Positions 9,348 through 42,294 of a stretch of DNA of 54,492 nt are shown piece after piece. A program made the position numbers and the translations under genes. The DNA is from an uncultured Dokdonia sp. (GTDB lineage Bacteria; Bacteroidota; Bacteroidia; Flavobacteriales; Flavobacteriaceae), in the NCBI RefSeq assembly GCF_947492535.1, contig NZ_CANLNH010000021.1, positions 1-54,492 of the forward strand, written 5' to 3'. The notes below the pieces were generated by a model. That model made no database searches. It was not told where the DNA came from and saw nothing but the letters and a program-made list of their open reading frames with translations. The stretch's first letter is position 1; the number at the start of each line of letters is the position of its first letter.

Positions 9348-9545
9348 TTAAAATATAACACACCTTCCATTTTCATTACCAGGAGTTGCTCCAAAGTAGC
9401 AACGATCTGTCCCTGCCGCAAGACAATCAAAGATATTAGAACATGGTATATTCGTTATAATGAAGTTGTATCCTCCGTTAATAGAAGTTTGTTCGTTTTT
9501 ACTCAATTCTTGAGCCCCGTTTAGTTTTAAAATGTTTTTTAGCAT
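9348..9545 (-). CDS. Double-glycine leader peptide precursor (bacteriocin-like)
   Basis: A 65-residue precursor whose first 25 residues form a classic double-glycine leader with the pattern LKLNGAQELSKNEQTSINGG. Such leaders are cut after Gly-Gly by peptidase-containing ABC exporters. The predicted core is 40 residues with four cysteines (PCSN, DCLA, DRCYF, GRCVIF), compatible with two disulfides or another modification. It resembles the Bacteroidota GG-type natural product precursor group. No C39 exporter, modification enzyme or immunity gene lies nearby, so it would need a transporter elsewhere. Function (bacteriocin, pheromone or secreted peptide) is not determined. Confidence 0.75.
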   Translation of the reverse strand: MLKNILKLNGAQELSKNEQTSINGGYNFIITNIPCSNIFDCLAAGTDRCYFGATPGNENGRCVIF

Positions 9546-35100: not shown

Positions 35101-36321
35101 ATGAGATACTTTATTCTTTTATGTATCTGCGTTGTTTTTTCGTGTAAACAGAAAGAAGAAACGCCTAAAGTAGAAGCGGTACAAGAAATGGTATCAGAAT
35201 CACTACTTACAACGATAGAAAGTCCAAGTAAAGGAAAAGCACACTTGCCAAGATTGGTCGCACAAAATGGTGTGTTACATATGAGTTGGGTAGAAGAAGA
35301 AGATTCACTCGCAATACTCAAATATGCTTCATATGCTAATGAAAAATGGTCTTCGCCAAAAACAATCACATCGGGAACGAATTGGTTTGTAAATTGGGCA
35401 GATTTCCCTGCATTGGCTATAAATGGCGAAACGGTACTCACAAATATTCTTCAGAAGTCAGCACACGGAACCTATGATTATGATATAAAATTGAATCTTT
35501 TATCAAATGATGAGGTTCTAAAATCAAATTTTCTCTTAAATACAGACGGTATCTCCGCCGAACATGGTTTTGTCTCTATGAAACCCTATGATGATGGGTT
35601 TTATGTGACGTGGCTAGATGGTCGTCATACAAAGAATGAAAAGAAAGAAGATAATCGGATGACATTACGTGCAGCGATTGTAGGATTGGACGGAACTATA
35701 AGAGAAGATACAGAAATAGATGCCAGCGTCTGTGATTGTTGTAATACCGCAATTGGTATTACCTATAACGGTCCTGTCGTTGTGTATCGTGATCGATCTG
35801 AAGATGCAGAAGAAATACGTGACACCTATATTGTACGATGGGAAGATGGCACTTGGGAAACTCCTACAGCGGTTTATCAGGATCAGTGGAAATTGAATGG
35901 ATGTCCAGTGAATGGCCCAGCAATAGATACACAAGCGCAAGATGTAGTCGTCGCATGGTTTACAGCATCAAAAGAAGATCCAAGAGTTTTGGTGACATTC
36001 TCTAAAGATAATGGCGTTAGTTTTGGAGATCCTATACGTGTAGATATGGGAATGGCAATTGGGCGTGTAGATACTACCTTTTTAGACGATGGAAGTGCCT
36101 TGGTGAGTTGGCTGGAGCCTAAAGATGATGCTATTGCTTTACAGGCTATACGAGTGTATCAAGATGGGCATAAAGATGCTCCAATCACTATTACAACGAC
36201 ATCTGCCGAACGCGCGAGTGGTTTTCCTCAATTAGAAGTAATTGGAAAGACCGTTTATATAGCATGGACAGATCTTCAGGGAGAGCAATCTACGATAGAG
36301 CTCGCTTCTTTTGAGATATAA
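35101..36321 (+). CDS. Propeller-like exported lipoprotein (sialidase-like repeats)
   Basis: A 406-residue lipoprotein (lipobox VFSC at about residue 15) followed by repeated blades with Asp-box-like turns such as SKDNGVSFGD and WVEEEDSLA, suggesting a six-bladed beta-propeller like sialidases. The sialidase active-site arginines cannot be confirmed, so glycosidase activity is not claimed. A CDCC motif near residue 213 is unusual for a propeller and might bind a metal or form a vicinal disulfide. It follows rimO by 18 bases and is probably cotranscribed. It ends before a bidirectional terminator facing a small peptide gene. Confidence 0.75.
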   Translation: MRYFILLCICVVFSCKQKEETPKVEAVQEMVSESLLTTIESPSKGKAHLPRLVAQNGVLHMSWVEEEDSLAILKYASYANEKWSSPKTITSGTNWFVNWADFPALAINGETVLTNILQKSAHGTYDYDIKLNLLSNDEVLKSNFLLNTDGISAEHGFVSMKPYDDGFYVTWLDGRHTKNEKKEDNRMTLRAAIVGLDGTIREDTEIDASVCDCCNTAIGITYNGPVVVYRDRSEDAEEIRDTYIVRWEDGTWETPTAVYQDQWKLNGCPVNGPAIDTQAQDVVVAWFTASKEDPRVLVTFSKDNGVSFGDPIRVDMGMAIGRVDTTFLDDGSALVSWLEPKDDAIALQAIRVYQDGHKDAPITITTTSAERASGFPQLEVIGKTVYIAWTDLQGEQSTIELASFEI

Positions 36322-36325
36322 AAAC

Positions 36326-36371
36326 CTAATATATAGGAGTTAAAGTTTCAAAATTAACTCTTATATATTAG
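36326..36371. terminator. Bidirectional terminator between the propeller lipoprotein and the small peptide
   Basis: CTAATATATAGGAGTTAA pairs with TTAACTCTTATATATTAG (18 bp, one mismatch) around a 10-base loop. On the minus strand it is followed by GGTTTTTAT. It lies only 10 bases from the peptide stop codon, which supports that peptide gene as a real transcript end. Confidence 0.85.
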
Positions 36372-36381
36372 ATTTTAATTC

Positions 36382-36504
36382 CTAATTGTCATCTTCATCG
36401 ACTATTTCTGCTCCTCCGCTTCCAGAACTAACTGAGCCGAATTTATTGCCGCCTACAATAACTTTTAAATTTTTAATCTCGAAATCTTCAAATTGTTTTA
36501 ACAT
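36382..36504 (-). CDS. 40-residue double-glycine peptide with a motif shared with the neighbouring subtilase
   Basis: A short gene of 40 codons. Residues 1-19 (MLKQFEDFEIKNLKVIVGG) look like a double-glycine leader: hydrophobic spacing LxxIxGG and an acidic amphipathic start. The predicted core is 21 residues, NKFGSVSSGSGGAE then IVDEDDN, with an acidic tail and no cysteine. The 14-residue core segment matches NKLGSVRSGSGGAE in the pro-region of the subtilase 4 kb away (12 of 14 identical, all DNA differences at codon position 3). It is the last gene on the minus strand after the CHAT protease gene, with an A-rich leader before ATG and a terminator right after the stop. Possible roles: processed signal, protease substrate or decoy. 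Confidence 0.72.
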   Translation of the reverse strand: MLKQFEDFEIKNLKVIVGGNKFGSVSSGSGGAEIVDEDDN

Positions 36505-36639
36505 AATTTATTTTTTATAAATACAGTATCAATTTAGATAAATTACTATAAAAAAACTAAAGATTTCTTTGTAAAAGTATAATTATTTAGTCTATAATAT
36601 CATATTCGCTTTGAATAAGAAAAGATTATTAATGCGGGT

Positions 36640-39390
36640 TTATTTAAAATTGATTTTAGATAATTCTTTTTTGTAAATTCTAATCACAACAACAATAATA
36701 ATTAGAATTCCTACACTAATAAGTTTAAACAAAAATGAACTATCAGATATTTTAATTGGAGTGTTATTACCGGTAAGTGTCGTTGAAGCCCAAAAATAAG
36801 GCGAGGTCTGTTCTAATTGATGGGTGTTTAAATAGTTCTTTTTTGAAGTGTATAATGCTTTTGATTTTGTTTCGCCTTTTATAAGTTCTTCATAAAATGT
36901 ACGAAGAATTTTATTGTTGGATGTCTCATTTACATTCCAATTTGATGCAATGACACTTTGTGAGCCACTATAGAAAAACCCTCTTGATAAGCTCATGATA
37001 CCTTCTCCAGGCTCCTGATTTCCTTGTGCTCCCTTACAAGCGTCCAAAATGATAAGGTTGGTATTGTTTTCCAAATCATATAATTCGTCGAGTAGTATCT
37101 TATCATCATATAGTTGTAACCATGGGGTACTATTTTCAGTGTATCCCGCATGAGAATTAATATGAATAATAGAGGCGTTTTTCAAACTCGATATAAAAGA
37201 AGTTTTCGTCGCATTTTCTTTTAGGTGTAATTTCATAGAAATGAGCGATGCGTGTTTTTTCATTTCTTCCTCACTCTCATTCAAATTGATTAGCTTCTTA
37301 TCTTCAAATAAAGTAGGGGCAAATCCTAAGATTTCAGAGGATGCAATATTTGAAGTTTTACGAATCTGTTTAAATACAGATGCAGATTGTAGATAGGATG
37401 TCTCGGTATGATGAAGTAAGTAATCAAGTTTGTGATTCTTTGATGTGTTTGAAATAGTAAGAGCTGCGAACGGAAGATTATGAAGCTCAAAGTCAGGAAT
37501 GATAATTAACCGCTTATTTTCAATGTCTCCTATTGATTTTAGAAATGGAAATAAGGTGTTAAATACCTCAAAAGATTTTTTTTGGTATGCTTGAAAGTCT
37601 TCCGTGGTTGTGAAAGCAGCGCTTATTTCTTTTTTTAGAAATTGCACTTGTTGGACTAATTTTGGGGCATCTTTTATTTCAAAGAAATGAGTAGCTTCCT
37701 TTGAAGCGAAAATACCATATCCTTGAGACGCATTTAAGATATACTCTACAAGATAGGTGTCGTTAGTAATATGTTTTTCTATACTTTTTTGTAGTGATAA
37801 AATTTCGGGTTCATTTTTTATAGCATAATAGGTTGGGAAGGTGATTTTTAATGAATCTAAAAAACGTGTATACTGCCGATCTGCATTTACAAATTCTTCT
37901 TGTAACTGGATATCGTTTTTTGAGCTTTGAAGTTGTTGTTTTAATGCTATTCTCGTCTGAAAAAGTGCTTTTTCTTTTTCTAAAATAGTATACGGGATAT
38001 CAAGGTTTTGTTGCTCATAACGTTTGTCTAAGCGCTCTAAAAGAAGTAACGCTTTGTTCTTTTCCATAAAATAAAATGCTTCATCTGGTTGACCTAATAG
38101 ATAGCAAACTTTTACTGCAAGCATATAAGAGTCTACACCACTATTTATCCAAAATAGTTTAGATTGGTCTACTTCACTATCAAGCCGAATTAAAGAAACC
38201 AGTTGATCAACCAAATAAAGTGTTTCTTTCGCGTGCGTTAAATAGGTGCGATTTTTCTCAAGCTCATATGCTTCTATCCACGCAAGAGATGTATTAATTA
38301 AATATTCAAGTACATCGGGTTTATATATATAGTCTTTAAATGAATGAATGGAAGGCAATCTTTGAATATTAGTAGAATCGTATGTTTCTTCTAAAGCGGT
38401 GTAAATTGCTTTTTGATAGTATGTTATTTTTTCTTTTGGATCGTTGGTTTGAAGATAATAGCCTTGATTATTATAAACATCTGCTTTTTTTATAGCATCT
38501 TTATTGATCTCTATAGCTTTTGTGTAGTATGCTTGCGCTTTTTGGTGTTCATTATTTCTGGAGTGCAGAACACCTAAATTACCATATAACACACCAATAT
38601 GATCAAAATCTTTGGCTTCAATATATATAGAAAGTGCTTTGTTGTAATAATTAGTTGCTTCCTCTTTCTGGTCAGAATTTTCAAAGATAGTCCCTAAGTT
38701 GGTATACATATCAGCAATGTCTTTAGTTTGAATATAATCGTCTAAAGACTTTATTTTTTCTTTTTGTAAAATGACTTCGTCTAAATATTTAGTAGGCATA
38801 CTCATTTTACTATAAACTTCTATAGAACATAAATGTCCATAGGCAAGTGTTTTAGGATCTTCATAGATATCTCCAGATAATATGACAGGTTCTAAATATT
38901 CTAATGCTTTAAAATAATCTCCTTCATCAATACTTATAAAGGCAAGTTCAATGAGTGCTTTAAAATTAAATTTATCTGAGCCTCTATTATTTAAAATTTG
39001 CTCTAAGTAGGTTCTACCTTTATAAATATTACCTAATGTTTGATAATAGATATAAGTATTATATAGACTATTATTTAAATCTATACTAGCTGTCTTAAGC
39101 GAGTCCCTAATATGAATAGCCTTAAGTGTTTCTTGTATAGCATTCTCGTAGTGTTGTATGGAATTATATAATAACCCAAGTTTATGATAGGTGTATCCTA
39201 ATTCAGGGGTAACAGTAAGTGTATCTATTGTCGTGAGCAGTTGCTGTGTTTCTTTTATTTTATCTTCACTTGATAGATTTTCATTGCTATAAATACTATC
39301 AAATGTAGTTTTTAATGCTTCTTGCGTATATACTTGACTATGAAATAAGAAGCAAAATAGAATGCAAATAGAAAAAAAAGGTTTAAACAT
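36640..39390 (-). CDS. Periplasmic TPR-CHAT (caspase-like) protease
   Basis: A 916-residue protein: Sec signal peptide (1-22, ending VYTQEA), tetratricopeptide repeats over about residues 40-430 (for example DMYTNLGTIFENSDQKEEA and GVLYGNLGVLHSRNNEHQKA), a helical linker, a CHAT domain from about 590, and a C-terminal membrane helix (about 885-905) with a short basic tail. The catalytic dyad of the separase/caspase fold is intact: His747 in IIHINSHAG and Cys785 in IILDACKGAQG, with GIMSLSRGFFYSGSQSVIASNW typical of CHAT. It would sit in the periplasm anchored by its C terminus, with the TPRs sensing a partner. It lies between the subtilase gene and the peptide gene on the same strand. Confidence 0.92.
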   Translation of the reverse strand: MFKPFFSICILFCFLFHSQVYTQEALKTTFDSIYSNENLSSEDKIKETQQLLTTIDTLTVTPELGYTYHKLGLLYNSIQHYENAIQETLKAIHIRDSLKTASIDLNNSLYNTYIYYQTLGNIYKGRTYLEQILNNRGSDKFNFKALIELAFISIDEGDYFKALEYLEPVILSGDIYEDPKTLAYGHLCSIEVYSKMSMPTKYLDEVILQKEKIKSLDDYIQTKDIADMYTNLGTIFENSDQKEEATNYYNKALSIYIEAKDFDHIGVLYGNLGVLHSRNNEHQKAQAYYTKAIEINKDAIKKADVYNNQGYYLQTNDPKEKITYYQKAIYTALEETYDSTNIQRLPSIHSFKDYIYKPDVLEYLINTSLAWIEAYELEKNRTYLTHAKETLYLVDQLVSLIRLDSEVDQSKLFWINSGVDSYMLAVKVCYLLGQPDEAFYFMEKNKALLLLERLDKRYEQQNLDIPYTILEKEKALFQTRIALKQQLQSSKNDIQLQEEFVNADRQYTRFLDSLKITFPTYYAIKNEPEILSLQKSIEKHITNDTYLVEYILNASQGYGIFASKEATHFFEIKDAPKLVQQVQFLKKEISAAFTTTEDFQAYQKKSFEVFNTLFPFLKSIGDIENKRLIIIPDFELHNLPFAALTISNTSKNHKLDYLLHHTETSYLQSASVFKQIRKTSNIASSEILGFAPTLFEDKKLINLNESEEEMKKHASLISMKLHLKENATKTSFISSLKNASIIHINSHAGYTENSTPWLQLYDDKILLDELYDLENNTNLIILDACKGAQGNQEPGEGIMSLSRGFFYSGSQSVIASNWNVNETSNNKILRTFYEELIKGETKSKALYTSKKNYLNTHQLEQTSPYFWASTTLTGNNTPIKISDSSFLFKLISVGILIIIVVVIRIYKKELSKINFK

Positions 39391-39430
39391 GATTTTGAGT
39401 TAGTTACCTTAAAAATAAGGATAAAAAAAG

Positions 39431-39508
39431 AGGCTGTCCAAAAAGGAGTAATTTTCGTCAAACTAAAACAAGCTTAGAATGACGTATTACATTTTTTTAG
39501 ACAGCCTT
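39431..39508 (-). terminator. Terminator after the subtilase gene
   Basis: AGGCTGTCCAAAAA and TTTTTAGACAGCCT pair across a 47-base loop. On the minus strand this is followed by CTTTTTTTAT. It separates the subtilase and CHAT genes, so the CHAT gene may have its own promoter or depend on readthrough. Confidence 0.6.
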
Positions 39509-39527
39509 TTACAATAATCTTTTAGGA

Positions 39528-40808
39528 TTATTGATAGAAATGCGGAATGTACTTATCGTATTTTGTTGGCTTTGTATAATTGACAGGAATTCCTTGATAA
39601 TCTAATTGATTTTTGATCTCTAAAGGTGTGTAGGTCATACCAGAGTTATATAATATTCTAGCAGCTACTGCGGTTACCAATGGTGCTGAAAAAGAAGTGC
39701 CAGAGATCAATACGGGTTGATCCATATGATTTACAAAAGGGATATACGTCCCATTAGTTATAAAATCTACTGTATTACGTCCATAATTCGTAAAGTAGGA
39801 TGCGTCAGTGGCTTCATGGTTAGTCGCTGCAATAGCTATTACATTGTTAGTTAATGCTGAAAAATTTGAAGGATAATGTGCAATTTGACCGTCATTATCA
39901 AGATTGCTATTTCCAGCAGATGTTACCACTAAAACGTCTTCATATTCCGATAATACATCTAAAAAGATAGCAGTTGTGTATGGATTAGCACCTGCAGCAT
40001 CATACCAGCCAGCACTTATTTGAAGAATATCAGCTTTTGGTAATGCGAATAACATACCGCATAGCATATTAAAAATACTAACTTCTCCTTGGTGATTAGC
40101 AATTTTTACAGGAAGTAATTGAAAAGGAACTTCAACATTATTAAGAGATGTATGCATAAGAGAGCTTACAGCAGTTCCATGTACAAGCGTGTCATCATCA
40201 TAACAATTATTATCTCCATTTACATAATCCCACCCAGAATATACACCTGGTATACCAAGATTTGAAGCATTATATAAAAAAGGAGCACTTTCTTCTAAAG
40301 TAGGGTAGTTCGTGTCAATTCCTGAATCTAATACAGCGATAATCACTCCTTCATTATCTGGTGAGACAATTTTATCAGAATCATAACTATTACCGCTTCC
40401 TCCGTTAAGTGTAGCAACTTCTTGTTCGAATTTAAAATTAAATTCCGTTATTACATTTTGGATGCTCTCAGCCCCACCACTACCAGATCTTACAGAACCT
40501 AATTTGTTTTCTAAATCGGCTCCAGGTCCAAAATCCCATTTTTCAAGAGTACCATCACAATGCGCACATACCTCATATTCTACAGCGCCATAATAGCTTC
40601 TTAGTGCAGCCTTCCTATTTGGAGGTGTGTGTTTTTTATATTGAATAATAAGCTCTCTTTTAGAAAATTTTGGGGTGTTTCTAAATGTTGACTGTGTCGT
40701 GTAATTTGCTTCTGTTACACTATTCTCTCGCGTAATATCATCAATGTCAGAACATGAGGCTACGAATAAACATGTGACAATTAAAAAACTACCAATTATT
40801 TTTTTCAT
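39528..40808 (-). CDS. Subtilisin-like (S8) serine protease lipoprotein
   Basis: A 426-residue exported lipoprotein. The lipobox VASC (Cys19) is followed by SDIDD, acidic residues resembling the Bacteroidota surface-export signal, so it may face outward. Residues 50-95 look like an inhibitor-type prodomain (RELIIQYKKH, then YEVCAHCDGTLEKWDF). Residues 101-114 are NKLGSVRSGSGGAE, the motif shared with the small peptide. The protease domain has an intact triad: Asp161 (AVLDSGID), His210 (LVHGTAVSS) and Ser372 (ISGTSFSAP), with Asn in TSAGNSN as oxyanion residue. It is divergent from an ECF sigma gene 113 bases away. The motif placement suggests a site where the proenzyme is recognised or cut. 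Confidence 0.93.
   Translation of the reverse strand: MKKIIGSFLIVTCLFVASCSDIDDITRENSVTEANYTTQSTFRNTPKFSKRELIIQYKKHTPPNRKAALRSYYGAVEYEVCAHCDGTLEKWDFGPGADLENKLGSVRSGSGGAESIQNVITEFNFKFEQEVATLNGGSGNSYDSDKIVSPDNEGVIIAVLDSGIDTNYPTLEESAPFLYNASNLGIPGVYSGWDYVNGDNNCYDDDTLVHGTAVSSLMHTSLNNVEVPFQLLPVKIANHQGEVSIFNMLCGMLFALPKADILQISAGWYDAAGANPYTTAIFLDVLSEYEDVLVVTSAGNSNLDNDGQIAHYPSNFSALTNNVIAIAATNHEATDASYFTNYGRNTVDFITNGTYIPFVNHMDQPVLISGTSFSAPLVTAVAARILYNSGMTYTPLEIKNQLDYQGIPVNYTKPTKYDKYIPHFYQ
40467..40508 (-). other. Segment of the subtilase encoding the motif shared with the small peptide
   Basis: Codons 101-114. Compared with 36447-36406 in the peptide gene, 30 of 42 bases match and all 12 differences are third-position changes, 10 of them silent. 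The two replacements are Leu/Phe and Arg/Ser. Confidence 0.9.
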
Positions 40809-40921
40809 CTTTATGGTCTTAAAATTAATAAAAGAGTTACTCTTACTTTTAAGTAGTGGTAATTAAAAAGTATTACCCAAATTAATTTAAAAATTTATTA
40901 TAGAACCCTATAATGTGATCT
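40809..40921. promoter_or_regulatory. Divergent control region, subtilase and ECF sigma, with GGTAAT inverted repeat
   Basis: A 113-base AT-rich gap with GGTAAT-N8-ATTACC (40858-40877) placed centrally. It offers the same hexamer to both strands, about 45-65 bases from each start. No TAnnTTTG box is seen. It could be an operator or paired -35 elements for the sigma factor encoded here. Confidence 0.45.
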
Positions 40922-41479
40922 ATGGAGGAAACTGAAAAGTATTTGAATGGATTAATATACAATGATAGGAAAGTAGTTGCTGCTATTTACGATGCTTTTT
41001 TTCCGAAAGTCAAATCGTTTGTTTTGAATAATAAAGGAGAAGAAGAAGATGTTCAAGATGTATTTCATGACAGTCTCATGTATCTTATTGTAAAACATAG
41101 AGAAAGCCCCTTAAAAATAAACTCCTTCGAAGCTTATTTTTTTACCATCTGTAAAAATATTTGGAGACGAACGTTAAAGAATAAAAAAAATCGGGTAATG
41201 AATCATGATTCTACGTACTATATAGATAAAGAAACTGATTTAGGATTATTTATTCTAGAACAAGAAAGATTAGAATTTTACCAAGAGAAGTTTCAGTTGT
41301 TATCCTCAAATTGTAAAGAGATTTTAGGAAGCTATTTTAATGGAATGAGCTATGAAGATTTACTTCAGGAATATGAGTATACATCCATAAATACGGTAAG
41401 GCAACGAGTATTTAAATGTAAAGCAAAAATAATTCAGTTAATAAAAGAAGATCGTAGGTATCGTAAATTAAGAAGATGA
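40922..41479 (+). CDS. ECF RNA polymerase sigma factor of the protease island
   Basis: A 185-residue ECF-type sigma factor. Region 2 covers about 15-85 (VVAAIYDAFFPKVKSFV, EEDVQDVFHDSLMYLIV, SFEAYFFTICKNIWRRTL). Region 4 is about 120-175 (CKEILGSYFNGMSYEDLLQE, then TVRQRVFKCKAKIIQLI). The acidic and divergent sequence is unlike the other two sigma factors in the window. Its stop overlaps the next start by 4 bases, coupling it to a TPR membrane protein. The divergent subtilase and downstream CHAT genes are candidate targets. Confidence 0.88.
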   Translation: MEETEKYLNGLIYNDRKVVAAIYDAFFPKVKSFVLNNKGEEEDVQDVFHDSLMYLIVKHRESPLKINSFEAYFFTICKNIWRRTLKNKKNRVMNHDSTYYIDKETDLGLFILEQERLEFYQEKFQLLSSNCKEILGSYFNGMSYEDLLQEYEYTSINTVRQRVFKCKAKIIQLIKEDRRYRKLRR

Positions 41480-42294
41480 GTCAACTATTTGAAGATAAAA
41501 GACAGCAGGAGATAGAGGCATATATACAAGGAATAATGTCTCAAGAGCAATTGGCGATTTTTGAAGAAAAACTCGCTAATGATAAAGACTTACAAGAAGA
41601 TGTATTACTTCAAGAATCACTACGGGATTCTTTTAGAGAGGACAATTGGGCAACAGTACCCAATGATACTACAAATGAAACGTTACAAGAATTAAAAACA
41701 AAATTACGAGACGATAGTTATACCAGCATTTCTAAAACCATAAAAGAGGTAGGCGTTGACTATCAACAGAAGATGCTGAATGAGGAGAAAAAACAAGGTA
41801 AACGGTTGTATTATCGCATGGCTATTGCTGCGATGGTCATTTTATTATGTGCACTTCCATTTTTAATAAATTCGCAACTACATAGCGATTATGATCAGTA
41901 TGCCAATTGGGATTCATTACCATCTCTAAGAGAAAAAGGCGATACACAAGCAAAAATTATAGAAGGAGAATCATTATATCTCTCAGGTAACTATGAAGAA
42001 GCAATACAATATTTAAAAGCGAATATTGATACTAGCGATCCATATTATTCATATGCACTTATCTATCTTGGAGCTTCTTATTTCCAAATCGATAAGTTGG
42101 AAGAAGCACATCAAGCATATGATGCTTTAATTGCGACCAATACACTTCAAAGCTCTTATGGATATTGGTATAAGCTTTTGATGTATTTAAAAGTTGAAAA
42201 TACAGAGAAAACAAATGAAATGCTCACACTCATACTGAGTAATCCAGATCATTATAATTATACAAAGGCTAAGGAAATACAAGAAGGATTGTAA
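41476..42294 (+). CDS. Single-pass TPR membrane protein, probable anti-sigma partner
   Basis: 272 residues. The N-terminal cytosolic part (1-110) is acidic and helical, with a pattern typical of membrane regulators coupled to ECF factors (EIEAYIQGIMSQEQLAIFEEKL). One membrane helix lies at about 117-135 (MAIAAMVILLCALPFLI). The periplasmic part has two or three TPR units (GESLYLSGNYEEAIQYLKAN and LIYLGASYFQIDKLEEAHQA). The 4-base overlap with the sigma gene, plus the topology, suggests an anti-sigma factor with a TPR sensor facing the periplasm, where the CHAT protein's TPRs also lie. No zinc-binding anti-sigma motif is seen, so the assignment rests on context. Confidence 0.72.
   Translation: MSQLFEDKRQQEIEAYIQGIMSQEQLAIFEEKLANDKDLQEDVLLQESLRDSFREDNWATVPNDTTNETLQELKTKLRDDSYTSISKTIKEVGVDYQQKMLNEEKKQGKRLYYRMAIAAMVILLCALPFLINSQLHSDYDQYANWDSLPSLREKGDTQAKIIEGESLYLSGNYEEAIQYLKANIDTSDPYYSYALIYLGASYFQIDKLEEAHQAYDALIATNTLQSSYGYWYKLLMYLKVENTEKTNEMLTLILSNPDHYNYTKAKEIQEGL

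Follow-up and report, generated by a model that had tools for sequence, protein, structure and literature searches.

The genes of Csx30 and RpoE are linked to that of Csx29 in type III-E CRISPR systems. In heterocyst patterning, a small peptide and a larger protein (PatS and HetN) share the motif RGSGR, which is recognized by a third protein. Subtilases carry a prodomain whose C-terminal tail enters the active site, and the stand-alone propeptide-like inhibitors of these proteases (SUB1-ProM and the fungal POIA1) are whole domains. Additionally, the TPRs of kinesin light chain bind acidic linear peptides in their groove. Craspase, the Csx29-containing system, has been treated in PMC9729208, PMC10028731, and PMC11106740, and the exporters of double-glycine (GG) peptides in PMC6363468; according to the accessible part of PMC6993865, SUB1-ProM of Plasmodium is a stand-alone propeptide-like inhibitor of a subtilase. 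No description of a GG peptide that copies a segment of a neighboring protein beside a TPR-CHAT protein was found in the accessible portions of the open-access literature.

Such an arrangement was observed in the window, as the whole stretch of DNA analyzed (54,492 nucleotides, from an uncultured Dokdonia sp.) is called here. On its minus strand, a subtilase with a lipoprotein-type signal is followed by the TPR-CHAT protein and the peptide, and an ECF sigma factor and a probable anti-sigma factor are encoded divergently on the plus strand (Table 1). When 26 of the 40 window ORFs of at least 150 aa were scanned with Pfam, no match to a C39 or ABC exporter was obtained, and neither a gRAMP/Cas7-11 or other Cas gene nor a RiPP modifying enzyme was recognized. 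PADLOC gave generic subtilase/IetS and TPR matches. The hairpin behind the peptide gene was not listed by a consensus terminator scan (loop of 3–8, G+C-rich stem). The sequence GGGTAAT, a possible target of the ECF sigma factor, lies at 40872 (−), upstream of the subtilase start, and likewise before the subtilases of loci L043 and L254; the window contains 8 occurrences of this 7-mer. At 9348–9545 (−), a second GG-leader peptide is encoded, whose core contains Cys and gave no convincing partner match.

Table 1. Features of the peptide, TPR-CHAT and subtilase locus, in window coordinates.
Feature	Positions	Strand	Evidence or detail
Hairpin right after the peptide stop, possible two-way terminator	36321..36376	.	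-20.4 kcal/mol, z -5.3
Double-glycine leader peptide precursor, 40 aa (leader 1-19, core 20-40)	36382..36504	-	ORF
Core motif NKFGSVSSGSGGAE, straight after Gly-Gly	36406..36447	-	Peptide residues 20-33
TPR-CHAT protein, 916 aa; TPR helices, CHAT domain, hydrophobic C-terminal helix 884-911	36640..39390	-	Pfam CHAT 1.1e-41; model mean pLDDT 80.6
CHAT domain, residues 612-875	36766..37557	-	Pfam
S8 subtilase, probable lipoprotein, 426 aa	39528..40808	-	Pfam Peptidase_S8 4.8e-25
I9-type prodomain, residues 47-128, beta-alpha-beta-beta-alpha-beta	40425..40670	-	AlphaFold2 model, mean pLDDT 81.6
Copied segment NKLGSVRSGSGGAE in the subtilase prodomain, residues 101-114	40467..40508	-	
ECF sigma factor, divergent from subtilase	40922..41479	+	TIGR02937 43.1 bits, cutoff 42.9
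Probable anti-sigma factor, C-terminal TPR	41476..42294	+	Weak TPR and NF052375 matches below cut-off

The initial annotation of this DNA had reported a motif shared by the peptide and the subtilase, and its positions were confirmed: NKFGSVSSGSGGAE follows Gly18-Gly19 of the peptide and NKLGSVRSGSGGAE occupies residues 101–114 of the subtilase. As had been counted, the two agree in 12 of 14 residues and 30 of 42 bases, and all 12 base differences fall at codon position 3, ten of them being silent and the remaining two giving F/L and S/R. The ungapped score of the pair was 60, which none of 3000 shuffles of the core reached (best 50); the Gumbel p of about 4e-6 is uncorrected for having sought such a pair. 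Codons differ at 12 of the 14 positions while the protein is kept. Ten of the 12 identical residues are differently encoded, against the 7.2 expected under independent choice (usage of 16 window genes); hence the pair is no recent copy, in accordance with the annotation. Its proposal of protein-level selection on the segment in two genes was likewise supported by the synonymous divergence and by the further pairs, of other sequences, described below. In a six-frame search of the whole 4.86-Mb genome (E ≤ 10), the peptide matched only itself and the window subtilase, so that SGSGG does not behave here as a generic linker of many proteins, the objection that had been foreseen. Neither Pfam nor NCBIfam gave a match to the peptide at E ≤ 1, and GG peptides searched in this way gave only sub-threshold matches and no family name. 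With 40 aa, a core of 21 aa and no Pfam match, the window peptide lacks a complete I9 domain.

In the subtilase, Cys19 and the residues Asp161, His210, and Ser372 were invariant among 23 aligned sequences. The AlphaFold2 model of the prodomain comprises strand 47–57, helix 63–73, strands 77–80 and 88–92, helix 99–108, and strand 119–128, and the shared motif corresponds to the second helix (99–108) and the loop toward the last strand, this loop being modeled at lower confidence. Among the structural matches listed, pro-subtilisins aligned from residue 50 and mature subtilases from about residue 152. Therefore, the motif does not lie at the junction of pro-region and protease. The descriptions of the segment as placed just before the catalytic domain and as an inhibitory linker that the peptide would mimic had to be abandoned, since in the model it sits inside the body of the I9 domain. 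The algicidal S8 protease AlpA1 of Kordia algicida was considered as a member of this subtilase family and rejected; it seems to be a different protein, since the accessible part of PMC10565126 gives it two close homologues in other Kordia, whereas the present family occurs in 11/11 genomes of the genus of G355, taken to be Kordia.

In the TPR-CHAT protein, His743, His747, and Cys785 of the CHAT domain were invariant in nine aligned sequences. Among the matches listed by Foldseek for its model, the TPR-CHAT of Csx29/Craspase was best and separase next, with TM-scores of 0.3–0.5 (0.35–0.5 for Csx29/Craspase), and the TPR matches in the search of solved structures included designed consensus TPRs, O-GlcNAc transferases, and kinesin light chain. 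A signal peptide and a C-terminal membrane helix, predicted by sequence, suggest that the protein is periplasmic. Three plasmid records held CHAT proteins at 25–28% identity.

Relatives of the subtilase were found in 17 of 299 sampled genomes of the family (E ≤ 1e-20), in 32 of 397 genomes by profile search (1e-40), and in 8 of 395 genomes of an order sample (1e-50), the own genome being included in each count and four candidates per genome being scored in the last two. All three genomes of the genus of G195 and four of the nine of G339's also carried it; a named-genome scan using the single subtilase gave no relative. An alignment scan with one generic active-site pattern kept 80 loci, mostly ordinary subtilases, of which seven (L054–L057 and L059–L061) entered the comparison of prodomains with small ORFs, and L097 and L114 also entered the GG-core scan (see below). 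The analyzed set of 79 loci counts the window as one of them and contains 81 subtilase ORFs, locus L302 standing outside it; the same contigs were entered twice as L057/L184 and L060/L187, L039 and L043 overlap yet hold different subtilases, and contig ends cut L034, L211, L246, and others. Simple S8 active-site motifs were present in 74 of the 81 ORFs, partial ones counted, and a lipobox-like pattern also in 74. A TPR-CHAT protein was encoded downstream, on the same strand and within 1.5 kb, for 80 of the 81 (median gap 104.5 bases); the exceptional subtilase lies close to the end of its contig, and the same genome has another contig that terminates in a CHAT gene. Sigma-like ORFs (E ≤ 1e-5) were detected in 76/79 loci and anti-sigma-like ORFs in 71/79.

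When each prodomain was compared with the small ORFs of its own locus, matching GG peptides were found in nine loci. These ORFs were of 20–110 aa with ATG, GTG, or TTG starts, 25–260 per locus, so that other peptides could be missed. L211, whose own prodomain is cut off, was counted as a tenth peptide-bearing locus; its core (SKLGSMEPDDDDGGVE) was therefore scored against the prodomain of L174 (72). The peptide thus occurs in 10 of the 79 subtilase loci, and no such peptide was seen in the fetched DNA of the other 69 (mostly about 9 kb on each side, less at contig ends); homologous loci lacking the peptide, named beforehand as counting against the shared motif, do literally exist. The peptide and prodomain segments were IVAIGISNEDNSDSE / IVAISMSSDDDSDSE in L043 and SKMGSILSEDDEG / SKLGSMDPDDDEG in L174; the Kordia loci (L180, L243, L244, L245 with two peptides, and L250) are exemplified by EKKQAAKADEEIE / EKKATAKSDEEIE, and L254 showed a weak match, PKKAVLESEIEGE / PKKGVIEEDIDDD (score 37).

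The cores were quite different between lineages, yet the same place of the prodomain was copied, namely helix 2 and the next loop in the fold, which was modeled for the window only. In 9/9 complete subtilase pairs the copied segment, of 13–16 residues, starts straight after [DG][LI]E. A short leader ending in Gly-Gly before the core was present in 12/12 peptides, L302 included, and the copy starts straight after it in 11 of them, L254 being the exception (offset 2). Segments of different lineages had no common residue pattern. The peptide core thus reproduces, in variant form, one segment of the lipoprotein whose gene lies just upstream of that for the TPR-CHAT protein, core and segment both differ by lineage, and the copied piece is short and fast-changing. 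The peptide gene itself is placed after CHAT in the window and L302, between subtilase and CHAT on the opposite strand in L174, L211, and the five Kordia loci, and beyond the sigma/anti-sigma pair in L043 and L254. The shuffle p-values, uncorrected for the 25–260 small ORFs per locus, were 4e-6 (window), 6e-6 (L043), 2e-5 (L180), 2e-10 (L302), 3e-4 (L174), and 1e-3 (L254). Furthermore, each of 66 GG-cores (un-nested ORFs of 28–75 aa) from 85 loci was compared with all ORFs of its own locus that reach 120 aa. The top nine matches were all to the protein encoded just before CHAT, followed by an unrelated one in L061 (41), another Kordia pair (41), L254 (37), and an unrelated one in L304 (37); shuffled cores, one per core, scored at most 39.

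Besides the search of the 299 family genomes, unlinked copies were sought in 11–20 genomes at a time, the queries being single peptides or one alignment of peptides. In the family search, the window peptide had matches in five genomes, its own included (E ≤ 0.1). One of them, L050, led to the partnered locus L302; L051 held GG peptides and no CHAT in 19.9 kb, and no GG peptide was seen in the 3-kb pieces of L052 and L053. Single peptides against 14 genomes yielded one new copy, in G299, and then none; against 20 genomes, nothing except the query itself was obtained at E below 0.5. In G339, the prodomain encoded at L175:9111-10382 (TKLGSIDSGSGDAESI) resembles that of the window; no peptide was found in this locus, nor in the genome with the peptides of L174, L180, and L254. 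GG peptides with other cores were also seen: two with a window-like leader (MLEKFKKFEIQ) and unrelated cores at L303:6631-7000, with no CHAT recognized near, and one with a Kordia-like leader at L266:5117-5263 (−), whose core has no match to the local prodomain.

Locus L302 (G288) carries the sigma-like and anti-sigma-like genes and the TPR-CHAT protein, and in place of the subtilase a lipoprotein-type protein of 199 aa, which matches no Pfam family, S8 included. A GG peptide encoded after CHAT, with a window-like leader, copies the C-terminal 33 residues of this protein (STDGVDAKTAVEK... / STDGVDGKTAVEK...; score 91). Since the copied protein is no subtilase and the TPR-CHAT protein is still there, the constant partner would be TPR-CHAT, as far as a single case goes. 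The earlier suggestion of a recognition element tied to CHAT thus gained support, TPR-CHAT accompanying both the non-subtilase partner of L302 and 80 of the 81 subtilases.

Taken together, the matching of peptide and partner segment points to an undescribed peptide-recognition system. We tentatively favor, as a possible explanation and not an established one, that TPR-CHAT has two competing ligands, the segment embedded in the partner and the secreted peptide. With the groove of its TPRs, the presumably periplasmic TPR-CHAT protein would bind the partner's segment, which would serve for docking or for cleavage; recognition in the groove is suggested by analogy with other TPR families. This binding would govern the release or activity of the partner, either an I9-inhibited subtilase or another lipoprotein. 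The peptide is probably exported: it would be cut after Gly-Gly by a putative C39-type ABC exporter encoded elsewhere and, as the free form of the same ligand, would compete for TPR-CHAT and thereby determine the partner's state. Expression of the locus may respond, via the ECF sigma factor and the TPR-bearing anti-sigma factor, to peptide from the cell itself or from its neighbors. A more doubtful reading, to which we give a minor share, is that of a polymorphic recognition at the envelope, in which TPR-CHAT would read the type-specific segment of its partner and matching exported peptides would let strains act on each other's module.

It seems rather unlikely, although some observations favor it, that the peptide serves recognition or antagonism between strains, being aimed at the CHAT/subtilase module of other strains and so carrying their segment type. 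In the Kordia type, which spans 13 residues, the prodomain segment of G762 (taken as Kordia antarctica) is identical to the G763 peptide (13/13), and the segment of G763 to peptide 1 of G762 (13/13), with silent DNA changes only (35/39 and 31/39 bases equal), while the own pairs of these genomes, whose subtilases are 67% identical, agree in 8/13. No own pair was identical, and the peptides of L254, L250, and L245b (by small margins also L180 and L174, and likewise L211, its own prodomain being cut off) fitted a prodomain from another genome best. Peptide genes also decay and vary in number, the related ones of G766, G761, and G768 being interrupted, seemingly start-less, or remnants. Against this, the peptides of the window, L043, L243, and L302 fitted their own partner best, and permutation of the five Kordia genomes with intact peptides gave pairings at least as good as the real ones with frequencies of 0.38 (score) and 0.48 (identity), and at most as good with 0.65 and 0.60. 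Neither self-avoidance nor self-preference was thus found in Kordia; the peptide keeps to the segment type found in its lineage and does not track its own protein in detail. The co-variation of peptide and protease, proposed beforehand as a check, held between lineages, but within Kordia the own prodomain was tracked no better than those of relatives. Two further features were noted in this genus: upstream of the subtilase, L180:11440-14193 and L245:5324-8956 encode an additional large protein bearing a sorting tail for type IX secretion, and four tandem GG-leader peptides (L304:9966-10583, G767), with cores such as DLIRGLQKDDGSDDLD and no matching neighbor, are present in a locus in whose fetched 19.9 kb no CHAT was recognized.

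We consider it unlikely that the peptide acts on the protease itself, where it would inhibit, misfold, or activate the subtilase in trans by competing with the second helix and loop of its prodomain. The copied piece lies in the prodomain in all nine complete subtilase pairs, by a fold modeled for the window, and stand-alone propeptide-like subtilase inhibitors do exist (PMC6993865, accessible part). However, L302 shows the same arrangement with a copied protein outside the S8 family, and just 13–16 residues are copied, neither a domain nor the tail that enters the active site. The cleavage-site idea of the initial annotation, in which a single protease, either CHAT or the subtilase, would cut the two segments, appears quite unlikely. 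The His and Cys residues of CHAT are kept and, by analogy, its model matches the fold of Csx29, the type of protease that cuts a protein partner according to the accessible text of the Craspase papers; nevertheless, the segments lack a common residue pattern across lineages, and so long a match would hardly be needed for cutting alone. The peptide gene could instead be a by-product or donor cassette, i.e., a captured piece of prodomain or a gene-conversion template diversifying it, which we regard as improbable: the crosswise identity of G762 and G763 could reflect an old exchange, but the window pair has kept its protein over almost wholly different codons and the copies stand in frame right behind a GG leader in several lineages. 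Chance similarity was set aside as a general explanation, with next to no weight left to it, because although a single 14-residue Gly/Ser-rich match could be luck, as the L254 match alone could be, low p-values were obtained at six loci (2e-10 to 1e-3), the matched positions in core and partner were the same in every case, and the GG-core scan needs no small-ORF correction.

If the favored competition for TPR-CHAT is true, it would represent a signaling principle: the message would be a free peptide that replicates a piece of the protein partnering the receptor, with peptide and segment changing together. It would also give access to the non-CRISPR CHAT proteases of flavobacteria, and culturable bacteria such as Kordia would allow ligand, receptor, and specificity to be tested directly.

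Compared with the known systems, the peptides share with the C39/PCAT bacteriocins and pheromones the leader of hydrophobic residues and terminal Gly-Gly; here, in contrast, the core copies a segment of a neighboring protein, and no exporter was recognized beside the window peptide among the ORFs scanned (26/40). The likeness to SUB1-ProM, as far as the accessible text describes it, and to POIA1 is that a portion of a subtilase prodomain has a counterpart encoded by another gene, whereas here helix 2 plus the loop only are copied, behind a double-glycine leader, and L302 copies a non-subtilase. Csx29 of Craspase has the same TPR-CHAT fold, the best among the Foldseek matches listed, and in both cases CHAT is linked to a partner protein and to a sigma factor of the RpoE/ECF type; unlike in Craspase, no Cas gene was recognized among the window ORFs scanned, the proteins carry predicted export signals, and a peptide of exported type copies part of the partner. 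Finally, as in PatS and HetN, a short motif is common to a small peptide and a larger protein, but the motif of that system is fixed, whereas here it changes by lineage together with the partner.
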